This document shows positions 1-13,729 of a DNA stretch of 33,811 nucleotides, one piece after another. The stretch lies in IMG/VR virus record IMGVR_UViG_3300048589_001555, positions 1 through 33,811 of that record. One strand, written 5' to 3'. The position numbers were made by a program, and so were the translations under genes. Position 1 is the first letter of the stretch. Every line of letters starts with the position of its first letter. This stretch comes from a virus. Below the pieces are notes generated by a model that was not told where the DNA came from, did not search any database, and saw only the letters and a list, made by a program, of their open reading frames with translations.

Positions 1-366
1 TCAATAGAAGCTACTGCGTTTCAATAAGCATTTGTGATTCTGCAAATTCGATTTCAACGATTTTATCGTATCGATAATGATGAGTCGCTCGTAAGCAGTA
101 CAGTCAGACAGAATCATGGTTATTTCCTGACTTGCTATTTTTGGAGCACTCTTTATCTGCTCGGAAAGCAACCAATCACCTGGAATTTCCAATGCGTTTG
201 CTATTAGGACAAAGGTTTCCAGGCTCATAATTTTACAACCGCTTTCTATATAGCTAATGTAGGTAGGAGATTTATCGATCAACTCCGAAAGCATCGCTTG
301 AGATAATTGGTTTCGCTTACGAATTTCTTTAATTCTTCGACCAATTTTGCAGTAATTCAGACCCAT
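1..366 (-). CDS. XRE-family helix-turn-helix repressor
   Basis: A 121-residue cytoplasmic DNA-binding protein with an N-terminal Cro/CI-type helix-turn-helix at about residues 9-63. The pattern 'IGRRIKEIRKRNQLSQ...SPTYISYIESG...LETFVLIANAL' is typical of XRE repressors. The C-terminal half is short, predicted helical and not recognised, so there is no LexA-like protease domain. The ATG at 366 is chosen over an upstream in-frame TTG at 396 because GGAGGT (373-378) sits 6-8 bases before it. It is divergent from the recombinase operon, as expected for an immunity repressor controlling integration and excision functions. The stop codon occupies bases 1-3, so the gene is complete. Confidence 0.85.
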   Translation of the reverse strand: MGLNYCKIGRRIKEIRKRNQLSQAMLSELIDKSPTYISYIESGCKIMSLETFVLIANALEIPGDWLLSEQIKSAPKIASQEITMILSDCTAYERLIIIDTIKSLKSNLQNHKCLLKRSSFY

Positions 367-385
367 AGATTGAACCTCCGAAAAT

Positions 386-414
386 GTTATGTTCAATTAT
401 GGACTTTTAATCAA
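386..414 (-). promoter_or_regulatory. Candidate promoter of the XRE repressor
   Basis: On the minus strand a TTGATT -35 (409-414) and CATAAC -10 (386-391) are separated by 17 bases, placing the start point just ahead of the GGAGGT of the repressor gene. Both hexamers deviate from consensus, so this is tentative. Confidence 0.35.
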
Positions 415-517: not shown

Positions 518-579
518 ATTGATGTCTTTACCTTCCATTTGTAAAATTGTATGAATGAAGAACAGATATGGAGGGGTAC

Positions 580-1188
580 GTGCCTGAATTGATTGAAGAA
601 AAAGAGAAAATCGGACTAGAAGTAATGCCTTCATTCGATTTTTCATTTTCGTGTGACAAAGAGCAAGAGCTGCGCATCTTGGAGCACAGGGCATGGCTTA
701 AAAGTATTAAGCGAGAAATGCCATTGCCAAAGCACCATTTTAAGGTCGCAATATACATTCGATATTTCAACCAGACGAAATATGATGATTACATCTCCTT
801 TCATAAGAAACAATTCTCTGATACGATTGCCCTTTGCCCAAATTGGGAATTCGTTGGATTCTATGTGGATGAAGGCGCTACCGCGCCTAATATGGAAACT
901 GCGCAGGCATGGTCACGGCTGTTAAACGACTGCAATGCTGGCAAAGTTGATTTAATTATCACTCAAAAAGCAAGCAATGTCTCCAAAAAAATCACGGAAA
1001 TAAGCTTCTGTTCAAGAATTCTTGCTGCGCTTGAAAAACCGGTTGGGATATATTTTATATCTGAAGACATCTATACTTTGGCATCATACTATCAGAGTGA
1101 TTTAAAAGACTCGTTTTTTCTTCCCTATCCCGATTGGTCTGTTCTGCCGGATGACAATTCTCAAGAGATAGGGACACTGCATGATTGA
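580..1188 (+). CDS. Serine-recombinase-like protein lacking catalytic residues
   Basis: About 202 residues. The central part aligns by eye with the resolvase domain of the next gene: 'VAIYIRYFNQ' against 'VAVYARVSTD', 'PNWEFVGFYVDEG' against 'PNWILVKIYADEG', and 'DCNAGKVDLIITQ' against 'DCRAGRIDMILTK'. The nucleophilic serine is Phe (about residue 63). The SRFARN arginines are Asn and Lys (about 133 and 136), and the conserved Arg after the DEG loop is Ala (about 108). It cannot cleave DNA by the known mechanism; a regulatory or structural partner role is inferred. GGAGG (570-574) lies 5 bases before GTG 580, which favours that start over ATG 568, whose own codon overlaps the SD. The 3' end overlaps the active recombinase by 8 bases. 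The N-terminal 50 residues are not recognised. Confidence 0.75.
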   Translation: MPELIEEKEKIGLEVMPSFDFSFSCDKEQELRILEHRAWLKSIKREMPLPKHHFKVAIYIRYFNQTKYDDYISFHKKQFSDTIALCPNWEFVGFYVDEGATAPNMETAQAWSRLLNDCNAGKVDLIITQKASNVSKKITEISFCSRILAALEKPVGIYFISEDIYTLASYYQSDLKDSFFLPYPDWSVLPDDNSQEIGTLHD

Positions 1189-3076
1189 TCAGATAAAAAA
1201 GCAGAAAGCTGAAGAACAAAAGGAAAAAGTACGTAAAAGGATTAAAACGCAGATTGATCCGAATACGTATGCTTTCATTCCAGCAAAAAAACAAGTTGAT
1301 TATTATGATAATGACATTCAACAACGCGTTGCAGTTTATGCTCGTGTTTCAACAGACAATATCCAGCAAACTTCATCATATGAGCTTCAGAAAAAGTATT
1401 ACGAAGATTTCGTTATACACCATCCGAACTGGATACTAGTAAAAATCTATGCCGATGAGGGTACTAGCGGAACATCCACTGCGAACCGGGATGAGTTTAA
1501 CAAAATGATAGCAGATTGCCGCGCTGGAAGGATAGACATGATTTTAACGAAGAGTGTTTCGCGTTTTGCGAGAAATGTCGTTGATTGCATTGGTATGGTT
1601 AGAACTCTTTCCGATTTACCGCATCCTGTTGGAGTCTTTTTTGAAAGCGAGTGTATTTTTTCACTTAAGGATGATTCCCAAATGGCGCTTTCTTTTCTGG
1701 CTACAATGGCACAGGAAGAGTCTCATATACGGAGCCGAAGCATGGAGACATCACTTCGTATGCGACTTGATGGCGGGCTGCCGTTAACGCCGAAACTTCT
1801 CGGCTACTCGCATGACACGGAAGGAAATCTTGTCATCAACCCGGATGAAGAGGCAACCGTTAAGCTTATATTCTCCATGTATCTCTATGGCTATTCAACA
1901 TCAGAAATTGCTACAACTCTTACTGAACTGGGTCGAAAAACATACCTAGGCAATATAACTTGGTCATCAAATTCAGTAGTGCAAGTATTACGAAACGAAC
2001 GTCACTGCGGCGATGTGTTGACGAGGAAAACTTTCACACCGAACTATTTAAATCATAAGGCAAAGAAAAACAGAGGGGATAGACCGCAGAGCATTTATCG
2101 GAATCATCATGAAGCCATCGTGTCAAGAGATGATTTTATCGCTGTGCAGCGACTTCTTGAAAATGCAAAGTATGGTAACAAATCAATTCTACCGGAACTT
2201 CGAGTGATTGACAGTGGTCTTCTCAAGGGATTTGTTATTGTGAACCCCCGCTGGGCGGGATTCAAGTCTACCGATTATTATGATGCTGCAATCAGCATTA
2301 AACCTGACCCGCAGGACCTATGTGAAGATACTAAATGTTTAGATCAAGAGCCAGAGATTCAATTCGAAGCAGAAGCCGGGGCTTTTGACATGCGGGGGTT
2401 TGAGATTACACGTTCGGAGATGTTTGATTCCGTTCATCGACCATACGTCATATTTCAAGACAAAAAAATCAAATTTAGCACTGCATGCATAAGAAAGTTT
2501 GATAAAAATAACCATATTGAGTTACTTGTTGATCCAATAAATATGAAATTTGCTGTCAGAACAATAGGTAAGGACAACAAATATTCAACCGTTTGTTCGA
2601 AACATGTAAATGACCTATATTATCCTAAGGAAATATCTTGTGCTGCATTTATAGATACATTGTTCGAAATATTCGGTTGGAACACAGACCTCAAATATCG
2701 GATATCGGGAGCGTTTTATCAAAAAGACGATGAAATTGTTTTTCTATTTAACATTAATGATGCTGAAGCTTTTATCAAACCAGTAATGCTGGCCATTCGA
2801 GCTGTGGAAAATGATCAAGAAGGGACGCTTGAACCATTGTCGACGTCGGGCAAAAGGGTTCGAGCTGTTCCAGAAGAGTGGGTTCATGCATTTGGCAACC
2901 TGTTTTACACCCATCAGCATATTTTTCCATTATTAGAATCCAAAGAAAGCATGGACTTGAATATTCGAGAGGAAGGGCAATTGTATGAAACAGGGGAGAA
3001 GATTTGCATGACCGGAGTAGATGAACTAAGCGAATTCATAAGTCAAGAGCTGATGAGGGGGAATACTCGAGAATGA
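1181..3076 (+). CDS. Large serine recombinase (site-specific integrase/excisionase)
   Basis: A 631-residue protein. The resolvase domain (about 48-190) keeps the nucleophile Ser57 in 'YARVST', Arg55, Arg103 and 'SRFARN' (127-132). A recombinase domain follows (about 200-330, 'LLGYSHDTEGNLVINPDEEATVK' region). Family members normally continue into a cysteine zinc ribbon and coiled coil. Here no CxxC pairs appear, and residues about 401-580 form a different module that is repeated in the next two genes. It likely catalyses integration and excision of the element by concerted double-strand cleavage and strand rotation. Its start overlaps the preceding gene and its stop overlaps the next start (ATGA), so the operon looks translationally coupled. 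Catalytic assignment is secure; the role of the C-terminal module is unknown. Confidence 0.92.
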   Translation: MIDQIKKQKAEEQKEKVRKRIKTQIDPNTYAFIPAKKQVDYYDNDIQQRVAVYARVSTDNIQQTSSYELQKKYYEDFVIHHPNWILVKIYADEGTSGTSTANRDEFNKMIADCRAGRIDMILTKSVSRFARNVVDCIGMVRTLSDLPHPVGVFFESECIFSLKDDSQMALSFLATMAQEESHIRSRSMETSLRMRLDGGLPLTPKLLGYSHDTEGNLVINPDEEATVKLIFSMYLYGYSTSEIATTLTELGRKTYLGNITWSSNSVVQVLRNERHCGDVLTRKTFTPNYLNHKAKKNRGDRPQSIYRNHHEAIVSRDDFIAVQRLLENAKYGNKSILPELRVIDSGLLKGFVIVNPRWAGFKSTDYYDAAISIKPDPQDLCEDTKCLDQEPEIQFEAEAGAFDMRGFEITRSEMFDSVHRPYVIFQDKKIKFSTACIRKFDKNNHIELLVDPINMKFAVRTIGKDNKYSTVCSKHVNDLYYPKEISCAAFIDTLFEIFGWNTDLKYRISGAFYQKDDEIVFLFNINDAEAFIKPVMLAIRAVENDQEGTLEPLSTSGKRVRAVPEEWVHAFGNLFYTHQHIFPLLESKESMDLNIREEGQLYETGEKICMTGVDELSEFISQELMRGNTRE

Positions 3077-3885
3077 ATAACAGTATCGATGATCGGCCCC
3101 ATAACATTTTAGAAAGTTGCGATTACCCTGCTGATTGTACCGACTCTGAAAACAGGATATGCAGCAATACGCAGATTTCTAAAGATGCAACAGCAACAAC
3201 GTTTCTTCAACTTGAAAAAGAATTTTATGTTCCAGCGGAAAGTAAAAGGGCTCAAATTGATGACGACGTGATCAAACTTGATGGTGAATTTGATTATGAC
3301 GGATATCAAGTGGTTCGACGTGAGTTTTTCGCACATACTAACGAGCCATCAATTGCTTTTAATGATTATAGAATCTCTGTTAATACAGCATGCTTAAATA
3401 AACTTCCTTTGACAGATAATGTACAGGTGCTTGTTAATCAAACCAATAAAATTCTTGCAATCCAACCATGTCAGGAAGAAGAACGCAACTCATTTGCATG
3501 GTGCACCCCTGGAAATGGCAGGAGGAAACCCAAGCAGATTACCTGCAGATTGTTCTTTGCCAAGATATTCACACTAATGAATTGGAACCCTGAGTATCGT
3601 TATAAGCTATTGGGGAAAATCATTCACGCAAATGATAAATATCTTCTGGCATTCGATTTGACAGCGACGGAAGTATATCAACGCGTAACGATTGAAGGAA
3701 AGAGGGCGAAAACATCCCGTACACCCGTATTTCCGGCTGAGTGGCAAAATCAATTTGGGTTGGCTTATAGTGAACACCAAAAATCGATGCAGATCGATAT
3801 TTTTGACGGGTATGCCGTGTATGCCATAAAAAGTAATGTGATTTCAAAAATTGAAATTGATTCAGTGAAGGATAAGCGGACTTAA
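3073..3885 (+). CDS. Free-standing copy of the recombinase C-terminal module
   Basis: A 270-residue protein with no catalytic domain. Residues about 71-236 resemble recombinase residues 401-580: 'GEFDYDGYQVVRREFF' against 'GAFDMRGFEITRSEMF', 'ISVNTACLNK' against 'IKFSTACIRK', 'VQVLVN' against 'IELLVD', 'MNWNPEYRYKLLGK' against 'FGWNTDLKYRISGA', and 'FPAEWQNQFGLAYSEHQ' against 'VPEEWVHAFGNLFYTHQ'. The N-terminal 70 residues look disordered. The start overlaps the recombinase stop by 4 bases (ATGA), implying coupled translation in fixed proportion. A DNA-binding or recombinase-partner role, perhaps a directionality factor, is inferred from paralogy and position only. Confidence 0.7.
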   Translation: MNNSIDDRPHNILESCDYPADCTDSENRICSNTQISKDATATTFLQLEKEFYVPAESKRAQIDDDVIKLDGEFDYDGYQVVRREFFAHTNEPSIAFNDYRISVNTACLNKLPLTDNVQVLVNQTNKILAIQPCQEEERNSFAWCTPGNGRRKPKQITCRLFFAKIFTLMNWNPEYRYKLLGKIIHANDKYLLAFDLTATEVYQRVTIEGKRAKTSRTPVFPAEWQNQFGLAYSEHQKSMQIDIFDGYAVYAIKSNVISKIEIDSVKDKRT

Positions 3886-3927
3886 GGAATAAGTTTTTTG
3901 ATTAAAAATATATGGAGGATTGGACAT

Positions 3928-4344
3928 ATGAATGTGCAGAAAGAACTCGTGGCGGCCTTAACTATAGACTTAAAAAGGAACAGATTCCGAATTCATAAGC
4001 ATACTTTACATGGACTTGGCGATCCCAGGTACATTCAATTCCTTATCAATCCTGAAGATGGTTATATTGCAATACTAGGGAGTGACAAGCCTTTGGTGGG
4101 GGGGACAGCGAATAAGGTCACTCTAGATAATGCAAACAGCAAAAAATCTGTGGAGTTTTACAGCGCAAACTTGCTTAATGGAATTTTCAAAATCTTTGGT
4201 AAGCTGGACTATCATTATAGTTATCGCTTAAGCGGTGAAATCGACCAAGTGAACCGAGTTGCGTATTATTCCATGAAAACGCTACAGAAAAATGGTCGGA
4301 GTGAAGTGGAGAATGGCGATGAAATTCAGACAACTGAAAATTGA
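3928..4344 (+). CDS. Second short paralogue of the recombinase C-terminal module
   Basis: A 138-residue protein. ATG 3928 is chosen because GGAGG (3914-3918) lies 9 bases upstream; an in-frame TTG at 3898 has no such signal. It matches the second half of the module: 'YIQFLINPEDGYIAIL' corresponds to the 'LLVDPINMKFAV' strand pair, and 'LLNGIFKIFGKLDYHYSYRLSGEI' to 'FIDTLFEIFGWNTDLKYRISGAF'. It lacks the N-terminal leader of the preceding gene and the 'PEEW...HQ' tail. Function unknown. Together with its neighbour it forms a three-member paralogous set inside one operon, suggesting a hetero-oligomeric complex on DNA. Confidence 0.65.
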   Translation: MNVQKELVAALTIDLKRNRFRIHKHTLHGLGDPRYIQFLINPEDGYIAILGSDKPLVGGTANKVTLDNANSKKSVEFYSANLLNGIFKIFGKLDYHYSYRLSGEIDQVNRVAYYSMKTLQKNGRSEVENGDEIQTTEN

Positions 4345-5284
4345 TAGCGAGTTTAAGAATCTGATCCGTCCTCTTCGCAAAGAAGAGTATAGCCTACTAG
4401 AATTGAATCTTGTAGCAGATGGGTGCCGTGATCCAATCATTATATGGAATGGGATCATTGTTGATGGGCATAATCGTTATGAAATTTGTAACAGATTGAA
4501 CATTCCCTATTCAGTAATGGAAGTAGAGTTTGAAAGCCGAGAAGCGGCTGTAATTTGGATATGCAGCAATCAGCTCGGAAGAAGAAACATTTCAGAAGAG
4601 ACACGAAAATATTTGATCGGTAGAAAATATGAAGCTGAAAAGTATATCGGAAGCCGAAAAAATACCTTTGGCCACAATCAATACACGAGATCACTCGATA
4701 CCGAAAAAACAGATCAAAATATAGATGACCACGGTTGTGATCAAAAAGAATACTGGCGGCGCACTGCATGGCGGATAGGACATGAGTATCACATATCTTC
4801 AGGAACCGTTCAAAAATATGCAAAATATAGCCAAGCTGTAAGGCTAATTGCTCAAAAAGCGCCTGAGTTAGTTCCACAAATTCTATCGGGCAACTACAAG
4901 ATATCGCATGAAAACGTCGTTGCTCTGTCAATGATGGACGCGAAAGAAGTGCAAAAGTTAAATCGAAAATTCGTGCAAGGAGCAATCCCATATATTCGAT
5001 ATAGTGAATCGCGAAAGGACTTTTCAGATGATATCCCTTGTAAATCGATTGACCAGATTCATGAACCAGCCGCAATAAAAGCTATGCCTGCGTATGATCC
5101 TGATGCCGTAGTTGTATGTCTCACGCTTACAATACCATCTTGGATAAGTTCAATTGAACGAACGAAATCGGCAGCAGACTTAGATATCATTTCCCCTGCT
5201 GCAAAATCAAAGCTTATAGAAGCTTTAGAAGAATTGCAGAGTACGGGGCGGGAGATGCTCGAAACAATAAGAGGAGAGGCTTGA
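4319..5284 (+). CDS. ParB-like N-terminal domain protein
   Basis: About 321 residues from ATG 4319, which has GGAGA (4308-4312) 6 bases upstream; in-frame starts further up overlap the SD or lack one. Residues about 10-85 form a ParB/sulfiredoxin-like domain with 'IIIWNGIIVDGHNRYEIC', the GHxR form of the ParB nucleotide-binding motif, then a helical part 'NISEETRKYLIGRKYEAEK'. A helix-turn-helix-like segment around 'GTVQKYAKYS' follows. The gene overlaps the previous one by 26 bases. ParB-fold proteins on mobile elements can act as CTP-dependent clamps, nucleases or regulators; which applies here is not visible. Being in the recombinase operon suggests DNA organisation or control of excision. 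Confidence 0.75.
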   Translation: MKFRQLKIDSEFKNLIRPLRKEEYSLLELNLVADGCRDPIIIWNGIIVDGHNRYEICNRLNIPYSVMEVEFESREAAVIWICSNQLGRRNISEETRKYLIGRKYEAEKYIGSRKNTFGHNQYTRSLDTEKTDQNIDDHGCDQKEYWRRTAWRIGHEYHISSGTVQKYAKYSQAVRLIAQKAPELVPQILSGNYKISHENVVALSMMDAKEVQKLNRKFVQGAIPYIRYSESRKDFSDDIPCKSIDQIHEPAAIKAMPAYDPDAVVVCLTLTIPSWISSIERTKSAADLDIISPAAKSKLIEALEELQSTGREMLETIRGEA

Positions 5285-6150
5285 TGTCAGATTATAATAT
5301 GTTTGTTCCAAATGTTCATTTTGAACAAATACCAATTAAAAATTTGGTTTCAAATCAAGAATATCAACGAAATCTATCACAACATCATGTTGAAAATGCT
5401 GCTGCGCATTTTGATCTTTATCAAATAAATCCTGTGAAAGTGAGTCGTCGCGACGGGGTTAATTATGTTTTCAATGGGCAGCATACTATAGAGATTGTTG
5501 CACTTATATCCGGATCACGGGAAACACCCATCTGGTGTATGATTTATGACGATCTGAATTATGAGCATGAAGCAGATATATTTGCTAATCAGATGAAGTT
5601 TGTAAGGCCATTGAAACCATATGAAGTTTTCATGGCAAATATAGAGGCAGGAAATGACAAGCAGTTAATCATCAAAGATCTCCTTGAGTCATACTCTCTA
5701 TCACTTGGACAAACTAGAAACTATGGGGTCATTTGCGCAGTCTCAACTGTTGAAGGTATTTACGAACGTTTCGGTTATCATGTCTTGGATCGTACCCTTC
5801 GCCTATGTGTAGGTGCATGGGAAGGTGATATGAATTCGTTGTCCGCAAATTTTCTCAACGGCGTTGCACGACTAGTCATTGCATTTGGCGATTCAATAAA
5901 AGATGATCAGTTTAAAGAAAAAGTCGGATATACATCTGTAAAACAACTTTCACGGACCGCTAAGGAACGTAGGCCGGGGTCACTTGGCTATGCAGAAGCG
6001 ATGCTTGTTGCGTACAATAGAAAATGCAAATTTCCACTTCGTTGGACAAAACTTTATGAAAAGAATCTTGGGACTACAGATGGACTGGATGTGGATATTG
6101 ATTCGCAGGATGTAGATGCGGATGTAATGGATGAAATCGATGATGAATAA
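5284..6150 (+). CDS. ParB-like / DUF6551-type protein
   Basis: A 288-residue protein. The N-terminal part carries 'IPIKNLVSNQEYQRNLSQHHVENAAAHFD', followed by 'YVFNGQHTIEIVAL', a variant ParB-type motif (NGQHT). It resembles the protein at 11965 ('VPLNEICIEQYQR...VDGQHRLCAM') in layout. The C-terminus is acidic (about the last 20 residues, rich in Asp). The start overlaps the previous stop (TGATG), with GGAG (5273-5276) 7 bases upstream. It is the last gene of the recombinase operon. A role in DNA binding or regulation is likely by family, but no specific function is known. The threonine in place of the usual arginine in the motif is worth noting. Confidence 0.7.
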   Translation: MSDYNMFVPNVHFEQIPIKNLVSNQEYQRNLSQHHVENAAAHFDLYQINPVKVSRRDGVNYVFNGQHTIEIVALISGSRETPIWCMIYDDLNYEHEADIFANQMKFVRPLKPYEVFMANIEAGNDKQLIIKDLLESYSLSLGQTRNYGVICAVSTVEGIYERFGYHVLDRTLRLCVGAWEGDMNSLSANFLNGVARLVIAFGDSIKDDQFKEKVGYTSVKQLSRTAKERRPGSLGYAEAMLVAYNRKCKFPLRWTKLYEKNLGTTDGLDVDIDSQDVDADVMDEIDDE

Positions 6151-11964: not shown

Positions 11965-12771
11965 ATGAGTTACATGCAAAGTATCGAGCGCGTCCCGCTC
12001 AACGAAATCTGCATCGAGCAATACCAGCGAGTACTGAACAATGCGCGTGTGAAACGCATTGCCGACAATTTTGACACGGCTCGCGTCGGCGTGCTTTTGC
12101 TCTCGAAGCGCGGCGAACATAACTATGCGATCGTGGACGGACAGCATCGCCTGTGCGCCATGCGTCAGATCGGATTGCAGGAGGCGGTGTGCATCGTTGT
12201 TGTCGGTATGTCATATCAAGACGAGGCTAACTATTTTCGGATCCAGACCAAGGATGCCAACGCGCTGAACGCTTATTCGGTTTACAAAGCGGGAGTTGAG
12301 GCAAAAGACGAGCATTTCCTCCGAATCGATGCCATCCTCTCAAAAAACGGTTACGCCGTCGGCTTGAAAGCCGAACCAATGGTGATCACCGCGGTGAACA
12401 CACTCTCTCGGGTCATGACCATGCAGGGCGAGAATGCTTTGGATTTGGCCTTACAGTGCATCCGAGATGCATGGCATGGAGACTCGACGGCACTGAGGCG
12501 CGAGATGTTAGCCGGCGTTGCCGAGTTTTCGCGCCGATATGCTTCGAACCTGACGGCGAATCTGTTTAGACAACGGATCGGCAATTTACTGCCAGCGGAT
12601 CTGTTCTTTGAGTATCGTTCCAGGTGCGAGGGACGCGTCAATACAAATAGTGCGTTCAAACCGATCTATCTGCAGATCTTCTGCGGAATGCTGCGCGATT
12701 ACTACAACAAAGGCCTCGGCAGCACATCGAAATTGCGGCTGGGAACAGGGGGCGAGCCACATGGAATGTAA
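11965..12771 (+). CDS. ParB-like / DUF6551-type protein
   Basis: A 268-residue protein. It begins 'SIERVPLNEICIEQYQRVLNNARVKRIADNFD', and 'YAIVDGQHRLCAMRQIG' carries the DGQHR ParB-type motif. A helical region follows ('AYSVYKAGVEAKDEHFLRIDAILSKNGYAVG'). This organisation is that of phage ParB/DGQHR-like proteins and resembles the protein at 5284. Ribosome binding site AAAGGAA (11951-11957). The 3' end overlaps the next ParB-like gene by 11 bases. DNA-binding or regulatory role during replication is likely by context; no catalytic activity can be assigned. Confidence 0.78.
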   Translation: MSYMQSIERVPLNEICIEQYQRVLNNARVKRIADNFDTARVGVLLLSKRGEHNYAIVDGQHRLCAMRQIGLQEAVCIVVVGMSYQDEANYFRIQTKDANALNAYSVYKAGVEAKDEHFLRIDAILSKNGYAVGLKAEPMVITAVNTLSRVMTMQGENALDLALQCIRDAWHGDSTALRREMLAGVAEFSRRYASNLTANLFRQRIGNLLPADLFFEYRSRCEGRVNTNSAFKPIYLQIFCGMLRDYYNKGLGSTSKLRLGTGGEPHGM

Positions 12772-13729
12772 GACGACAGAAATTCCGATCTCATCCATCC
12801 TGGTGTCGACACGTATCCGTAAGGATACGGGGAACATTGATGCGCTAGCGATGGATCTGCAGCAGCACGGGTTGATCAACCCGATCACGGTCATGGACTG
12901 CCAGAACGGATCGTATCAGCTGATTGCAGGGCTTCGACGGTTGCAAGCGGCGCAGCAGATTGGGTTGCCGCTGATTCGTACAACAGTGCTTTCACCCATG
13001 CAAGCGGAAGAGATGCTCGCGATAGAAATTGCCGAAAACGAACAACGCCTCAATTTCACCACAGCAGAACGGTTGGAATACGCCGAAAAGATCAAGGCCA
13101 TCGAACAAGCGAAGGCGCGGGAGCGTATGGCTCTTTACGCGCGTGAAGGGTACGAGAATGATCAGGGTAGGGTCGAACGATCCTACCCTGACAAAGGTAG
13201 AGTTCGAGATGCAATTGCAAAACGCGTTGGATTTTCGAGTGGATCTCAGTTCGAACGCGCGGAAGCAGTTGCGAAGAAGCGTCCTGATCTATTGGCGAAG
13301 ATTGATTCCGGTGAGGCAAGTATATATGGCGCATACAAGGCGGTCAAAAGAGATAATGCGAAACCTGAGGCTGCAGAACCTCCCGAAAAACCAAAAACAG
13401 CGCTTGACCAAGTTGCCCGTGCTGGAATCGAGCGGCTTATGAAGAATCCACATTTTCTGGAATTACTGGAGGAGCTCGGAAATATGCGCGCGGAAGCGAC
13501 TATCGCGAAAACGCAGCTAAAACGCGCGACGGAAGCATATGACAACAAAGTCAAGCACTTTGAAAACAACGTTGACTTCTTGTCGCGTCGCGTCAGGGAA
13601 CTGGAAAAAGAGAACGCCGAGCTTCGCGCCCGGCTGGGAATGGAGGCAAGGCATGTCAAGCGAGTTGAGTTCGGCAACCCCGACGGGGTCATCGGGATTC
13701 CCTCGGATTCTGTATCTGCCAAGAACTGA
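12761..13729 (+). CDS. ParB/Spo0J-family partition-like protein
   Basis: A 322-residue protein. ATG 12761 follows AGGGGGCG at suitable spacing and overlaps the previous stop. A classical ParB order is visible: 'EIPISSILVSTRIRKDTGNIDALAMDLQQHGLINPITV', 'YQLIAGLRRLQAAQQIG' (box II-like), 'AIEIAENEQRLNFTTAERLEYAEKIKAIE', then a helix-turn-helix-like stretch ('VRDAIAKRVGFSSGSQFERAEAVAKKRPDLLAKIDSGEASIYGAYKAVK'). The last 90 residues form a coiled coil. On phages such proteins aid partition or regulate transcription. No ParA is seen nearby, which argues against an autonomous partition system. A 10-bp inverted repeat lies inside the coding sequence (13162-13191). Confidence 0.85.
   Translation: MECKTTEIPISSILVSTRIRKDTGNIDALAMDLQQHGLINPITVMDCQNGSYQLIAGLRRLQAAQQIGLPLIRTTVLSPMQAEEMLAIEIAENEQRLNFTTAERLEYAEKIKAIEQAKARERMALYAREGYENDQGRVERSYPDKGRVRDAIAKRVGFSSGSQFERAEAVAKKRPDLLAKIDSGEASIYGAYKAVKRDNAKPEAAEPPEKPKTALDQVARAGIERLMKNPHFLELLEELGNMRAEATIAKTQLKRATEAYDNKVKHFENNVDFLSRRVRELEKENAELRARLGMEARHVKRVEFGNPDGVIGIPSDSVSAKN
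13162..13191. repeat. 10-bp perfect inverted repeat inside the ParB-like gene
   Basis: TCAGGGTAGG (13162-13171) and CCTACCCTGA (13182-13191) flank a 10-base centre. The encoded residues (around 'GRVERSYPDKGRV') lie in a linker, so the DNA is free to hold a binding site. It does not match the classical parS sequence. Confidence 0.6.

Follow-up and report, generated by a model that had tools for sequence, protein, structure and literature searches.

An operon of phages and islands in gut Clostridia as a candidate multi-subunit serine recombinase with recognition modules encoded in trans

The stretch of DNA analyzed here, which we call the window, comprises the 33,811 nucleotides of the IMG/VR virus record IMGVR_UViG_3300048589_001555. 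Its first gene (1–396, minus strand) encodes an XRE-type helix-turn-helix regulator (PF01381, E 2.7e-12) that is divergent from an operon of six tightly coupled plus-strand genes, A to F, which occupy positions 568–6150; in most of the loci inspected, a helix-turn-helix relative of this regulator precedes the operon. ORF A (568–1188) is a paralogue of the catalytic domain of the B protein without the catalytic serine, and ORF B (1181–3076) encodes a serine recombinase of 631 amino acids. Downstream are ORF C (3073–3885), a free-standing copy of the whole C-terminal module of B preceded by a disordered N-terminus, and ORF D (3898–4344), a free-standing core module. The operon is completed by two ParB-like genes, ORF E (4292–5284), a constant member with weak PHROG matches to ParB-like proteins and to a DNA methyltransferase, and ORF F (5281–6150), which carries a DUF6551 domain (PF20188, E 1.3e-32). 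Genes overlap by 8 bases (A/B), 4 bases (B/C), 53 bases (D/E) and 4 bases (E/F), and the gap between C and D is 12 bases long, or 42 bases if D begins at the ATG at 3928, after a GGAGG, which is probably its true start. The short overlaps and gaps from A through F bear out the original prediction that recombinase and modules belong to one coupled operon.

The window comes from a relative of the Ca. Heliusvirales phages. Its head genes (TerL, portal, Clp protease and major capsid) encode proteins that are 52–71% identical to those of PV036453.1, with values of 71% for TerL, 69% for the portal and 65% for the capsid, and the published Heliusvirales core genes found in this incomplete contig are SNF2, TerL, portal, Clp and capsid. 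The A–F operon is present in 16 phage records of the PV036453.1 series, where its products are annotated 'hypothetical protein'; the assignment to the order was read in three of these 16 records. The nine published core genes of the Ca. Heliusviridae do not include the operon (PMC9226167). Elsewhere in the window, in the replication region (11965–13729), a ParB_N gene is overlapped by a second DUF6551 gene that is distantly paralogous to F. The right contig edge (32307–33656) carries a gene for a GAF-GGDEF protein (diguanylate cyclase), which follows the head genes, ahead of any gene for a tail tape measure protein, and may be host DNA or cargo.

The B protein carries a resolvase domain (PF00239, residues 50–189, E 6e-23) followed by a recombinase domain (PF07508, residues 221–327, E 1.1e-22), and past residue ~330 no known domain was matched in Pfam, PHROGs or NCBIfam. 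The best NCBIfam matches for its N-terminal half are Ccr proteins, and a Foldseek search with the whole AlphaFold model returned serine-integrase complexes, matched over the catalytic and recombinase domains only. The active-site residues of B are invariant across the 18 rows of its alignment, and 89 of its 91 distinct homologues retain the Y-R-S motif. Of the chains encoded in the operon, B alone has an intact serine active site.

The C-terminal module of B (residues ~398–580; positions 2372–2920) occupies the place of the zinc ribbon and probably of the coiled coil. The cysteine motif of the zinc ribbon was found in none of 99 B homologues, as opposed to 78 of the 79 neighbouring ordinary large serine recombinases (LSRs), and the replacement of the ribbon by the module, proposed at the outset, is thus upheld. 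In the AlphaFold model of B, long paired helices are absent beyond residue 400, where segment 534–594 is of low confidence.

Pfam, PHROGs and NCBIfam gave nothing above noise for ORFs C and D, and their relationship to B emerged from direct comparison. BLASTP aligned the B tail with the whole module of C (residues ~70–240) at E 5e-24 and 25% identity, the alignment stood at z = 36 in a shuffle test in which 0 of 500 shuffles reached the real score, and profile-profile comparison with hhalign gave E 1.3e-39. For D, the single sequence was unconvincing (BLASTP E 0.019, shuffle z = 2.2), but as a profile D matched the B module (98.6%, E 7.5e-16) and, with deeper alignments, C (98.2%, E 3e-14), so that the HMM-HMM comparison of B residues 398–580 is significant for both proteins. 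When run against 16 whole genomes, the D profile retrieved D, C, the B tail and almost nothing else; among 6,374 ORFs from all fetched loci it recovered, at E < 1e-3, 105 D, 106 C and 104 B proteins and zero others. This specificity, together with the shuffle test for B and C, rules out chance similarity among the modules.

The alignment of D extends over both of the bbabb repeats that make up the module (profile columns 31–150), and D lacks only a lead-in of ~30 residues and the C-terminal tail. The original prediction of three copies of one module therefore stands with regard to C, which is a whole module, and to D, which is the same module by profile; its further statement that D represents the 'second half' is wrong in detail, since D spans both structural repeats and is nearly the whole core module. 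D homologues are divergent, with many pairs only ~30% identical, and the median pI values of the C and D modules (9.3 and 9.2) are higher than that of the B module (8.0). Remoter members of the module family occur in the gut phage and plasmid records MT836086.1 (H18), MT838295.1 (H19) and OY725878.1 (H20) and in genome G190, either as proteins with 23–25% identity to C or as part of a B of about 730 residues.

The AlphaFold model of B (18 rows, mean pLDDT 68) places the two bbabb repeats at residues 422–531, and that of C (74 rows) has the same order of elements at residues 93–202, within a core (90–205) of pLDDT ~95. Structure prediction thus agrees with the proposed kinship of the B tail and C as far as the order of secondary-structure elements is concerned. 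Before the structural search was made, the topology of the B model had already led us to expect an AbrB/MraZ fold; MraZ is a DNA-binding protein built of two AbrB-like repeats. The three best solved structures for the C model were those of Mycoplasma genitalium MraZ, two of them with DNA (Z 4.8, 4.6 and 4.2; next Z 3.2), superposed over 84–86 residues with an rmsd of 3.1–3.4. A Z of 4.8 can arise by chance, and the MraZ-like fold of the module is suggestive only. The comparison of the module with five MraZ proteins by hhalign, with a thin profile, was not significant, the MraZ Pfam family (PF02381) matched none of 74 D and 74 C members, and a search of PDB sequences with the D and C profiles gave nothing meaningful. 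Foldseek returned no significant solved match for the C model, with clamp-like matches at low probability, and a viral library yielded uncharacterised phage proteins only.

ORF A resembles the catalytic domain of B (BLASTP E 4e-19) and was overlooked in the original picture of a recombinase plus modules, whose module part is confirmed. In a 14-row alignment, the Y-x-R-x-S motif reads YIRYFNQT in A and SRFARN reads SNVSKK; the serine position holds an aromatic residue (F/Y) in 51 of 52 distinct homologues and S/T in none. A is an old catalytic-domain paralogue, and its catalysis is predicted to be lost. A has neither a recombinase domain nor the catalytic serine, and C and D have no catalytic domain; both halves of the recombinase thus occur as separate proteins, and about half of the loci, the 58 of 104 that include A, encode both in trans. 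Other proteins of this kind were seen in passing. Weak A-like proteins occur between D and E or after F (L071:3685–4095, L068:10177–10635), a 143-residue resolvase-domain protein with aspartate in place of the serine (YCRVDGAST) is encoded near the sharp left end of a shared element (L041:1519–1950, minus strand), and the region from G005 has a similar serine-to-aspartate protein (YCRID).

A set of 104 C-containing loci, with some near-duplicates among them, was collected from viral contigs and one-per-species genomes. C is preceded by B and followed by D throughout this set, apart from one locus whose contig begins at C and one whose contig ends there, and the recombinase-module-module synteny that the original prediction put up for survey is thus conserved in essentially every locus. 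E and F follow D in nearly all 104, and nearly all genomes searched carry one copy of each gene. The module was present in 7 genomes of a random sample of 291 from the class, indicating that the operon is widespread, yet not common. In a maximum-likelihood tree of 28 trios, the B modules form one well-supported clade, as do the D modules, and the C modules nearly do so, with one divergent row (L021) unstable; these separate clades indicate that the module duplications are older than the spread of the operon. Pairwise distances among B, C, D, E and F are correlated (mirror-tree r 0.57–0.87), as is usual for genes moving together.

Phages and islands of gut Clostridia, islands of defence genes among them, widely carry the operon, whose genes are annotated as hypothetical or left unannotated. 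Heliusvirales-type head genes were absent from the fetched regions of four elements with the operon (G001–G004). In Coprococcus comes and Blautia luti, an element of ~20 kb splits the host cpaF gene between DMLQA and INTGHDG, and its 99.3% identity in two genera points to recent movement. F ends ~0.47 kb short of one junction; the opposite end of the element has a Tn554-like tyrosine recombinase triple, and restriction genes are found in between. In Bilifractor, the same cpaF insertion carries different cargo. Restriction cargo is interchangeable in this element, which splits the Tad pilus ATPase gene (L149–L151 in G009:C49, C. comes; L152–L157 in G010:C122, B. luti; L158–L162 in G011:C12). 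In Anaerocolumna, comEC is interrupted close to its 3' end by a prophage that has F about 0.3 kb from the junction and, towards its other end, an ordinary recombinase pair. Prophages of R. torques and Kineothrix interrupt comEC at the AISGLH motif; the operon is positioned differently in them. The distance from the F end to the junction is ~8 kb in G007, and the attachment end of G008 is upstream of B.

Downstream of F, at a distance of no more than 10 kb, about 43 of the 104 loci carry an ordinary LSR pair or triple. On contigs G015, G018, G023, G024 and G025, no full serine or tyrosine recombinase besides B was detected; contigs without another recombinase include likely remnants, such as G016, with a remnant after F, and the flank of L049. 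Operons lying between host genes were considered as minimal autonomous elements and rejected, owing to the remnant after F in G016 and to insertion-sequence-like debris that follows in L049, for which no clean empty site was found. No complete element with the A–F operon as its only recombinase could be delimited. Two further candidates were discarded: the ~19–20 kb block shared by G002–G004 as a whole element, since its left end is sharp and its right side mosaic, and the GroEL gene of G015 as a split gene, since it is contiguous apart from a frame break.

Two observations concern the surroundings of the operon. Upstream there is often a variable cargo slot (L082:210–6856, L084:588–7117, L111:2–5823, L105:3204–5999), which by eye contains McrBC with two cytosine methylases, or type I or type IIG restriction genes. 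In the downstream recombinase triples, the middle gene (~301 codons, minus strand; L034:16212–17114, L041:16184–17086, L043:16154–17056 and others) encodes a recombinase domain with CxxC motifs and no catalytic domain, that is, another recombinase part as a separate protein.

The best reading of these data, to which we give about even credence, is that the products of the A–F operon make up a multi-subunit serine recombinase that serves mobile elements, in which recognition modules would be supplied in trans to one catalytic chain. It draws on the homology of the modules, the B-C-D order in 104 loci, the early duplications and the covariation of B through F, as well as on an active site kept in B and lost in A, the missing zinc ribbon of B and the basic character of C and D. 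The best solved match of C, to an MraZ partly seen bound to DNA, points in the same direction, as do the F ends that lie 0.3–0.5 kb from split host genes (cpaF in Coprococcus, Blautia and Bilifractor; comEC in Anaerocolumna) and the several contigs on which B is the sole full serine or tyrosine recombinase detected. Evidence against it is that many elements also carry LSR pairs, LSR triples or a Tn554-like tyrosine triple that could integrate them, that the ends in G007 and G008 are arranged otherwise, that the similarity to MraZ is weak and invisible by profile or Pfam, and that contigs without another recombinase include likely remnants.

How such an enzyme might work can be sketched more tentatively. 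Ordinary integrases use the zinc ribbon and the coiled coil to tell sites apart and to give direction. In a split, heteromeric recombinase, the full chain B, the dead A and the free modules C and D would form asymmetric complexes, and the subunits present could set site choice and direction in place of these built-in parts; we consider this possibility somewhat less likely than not. B keeps the N-terminal catalytic domain and PF07508, and the tandem bbabb module that it has instead of the zinc ribbon and, probably, the coiled coil would be a DNA-recognition domain, perhaps of the MraZ/AbrB-like swapped-hairpin type. C and D might bind next to the module of B on the attachment-site arms, or associate with B by contacts between modules, and one catalytic dimer would thereby read a long composite site. 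A could fill catalytic-domain positions without cutting, and site discrimination and direction would come from complexes whose subunits differ between the two sites. The ParB-like E and F may act as DNA-binding partners in the same nucleoprotein complex, which would perform integration or excision.

Alternatively, C, D and also A could be regulators derived from parts of B, with B alone acting as the recombinase; they would compete for the sites of B or cap its module, as directionality factors or inhibitors. We see this as improbable, though the strongest of the alternatives. The modules of C and D are more basic than that of B and could occupy the same DNA, and A is dead yet conserved, as expected for a dominant-negative partner. 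Since about 44% of loci have no A, this protein is not essential to catalysis. XisF provides a precedent, as it requires XisH and XisI, possibly for direction (PMC4874684). Nevertheless, two module proteins, translationally coupled to B, are retained at essentially every locus, an arrangement that fits stoichiometric subunits better than a tunable inhibitor.

Another possibility is that the elements are moved by the other recombinases, be they the LSR pairs and triples or the Tn554-like triple, and that the A–F operon resolves multimers, partitions or otherwise maintains the element. The frequent LSRs downstream of F, the Tn554-like triple at the opposite end of the cpaF element and the two ParB-like genes that end the operon would agree with such a role. 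It has to be set against the contigs without another detected full recombinase, the F ends that abut junctions between element and host, and a ParA-like partner that was not seen, and we give it a slightly smaller chance still. That C and D are functionless, decaying duplicates is very improbable: the low identity among D homologues would be compatible with decay, but both genes retain intact frames, invariant residues and a fixed order over about 100 loci from several bacterial families, and their modules fall in separate old clades.

If the multi-subunit reading is correct, the operon represents a new way to build a recombinase, from separate recognition subunits and a dead catalytic partner, whose specificity and direction could be tested by adding or removing subunits, a property useful for engineering. 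Serine integrases are regarded as single-protein machines in which site recognition is contained within one chain, and to our knowledge none of the ordinary LSRs, CcrAB or XisF-XisH-XisI has its own recognition domain as separate paralogous subunits. In the literature searched, whose coverage left out most subscription papers, we found no description of the B-module-module layout, in keeping with the original remark that it is not known from phiC31- or TnpX-type enzymes.

Several known systems nonetheless share individual traits with the operon. The module of C, as predicted, resembles MraZ in the order of its elements, and also in its basic charge; it differs in being fused to, or partnered with, a recombinase, and the two have no significant profile similarity. 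In the cyanobacterial fdxN element, the serine recombinase XisF needs two small accessory proteins, XisH and XisI (PMC4874684), whereas the small proteins here, C and D, are paralogous to the tail of the recombinase itself and have no Pfam match to XisH, XisI or any named family. CcrA and CcrB of SCCmec are, as here, serine recombinase products of neighbouring genes that act together (PMC6222049), but both are full-length recombinases, whereas here only B is, and its partners are single-domain pieces. The C-terminal part of the LI (A118-type) integrase, which reads the attachment half-site, consists entirely of the recombinase domain and a zinc ribbon into which a coiled coil is inserted (PMC3783163). 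This enzyme and other large serine recombinases (phiC31, Bxb1, TnpX) resemble B in combining PF00239 and PF07508 with an intact active site and in being borne by phages or islands; B differs from them in having no zinc ribbon, in a tandem bbabb module that is repeated in two further proteins, and in its association with a dead catalytic-domain protein.
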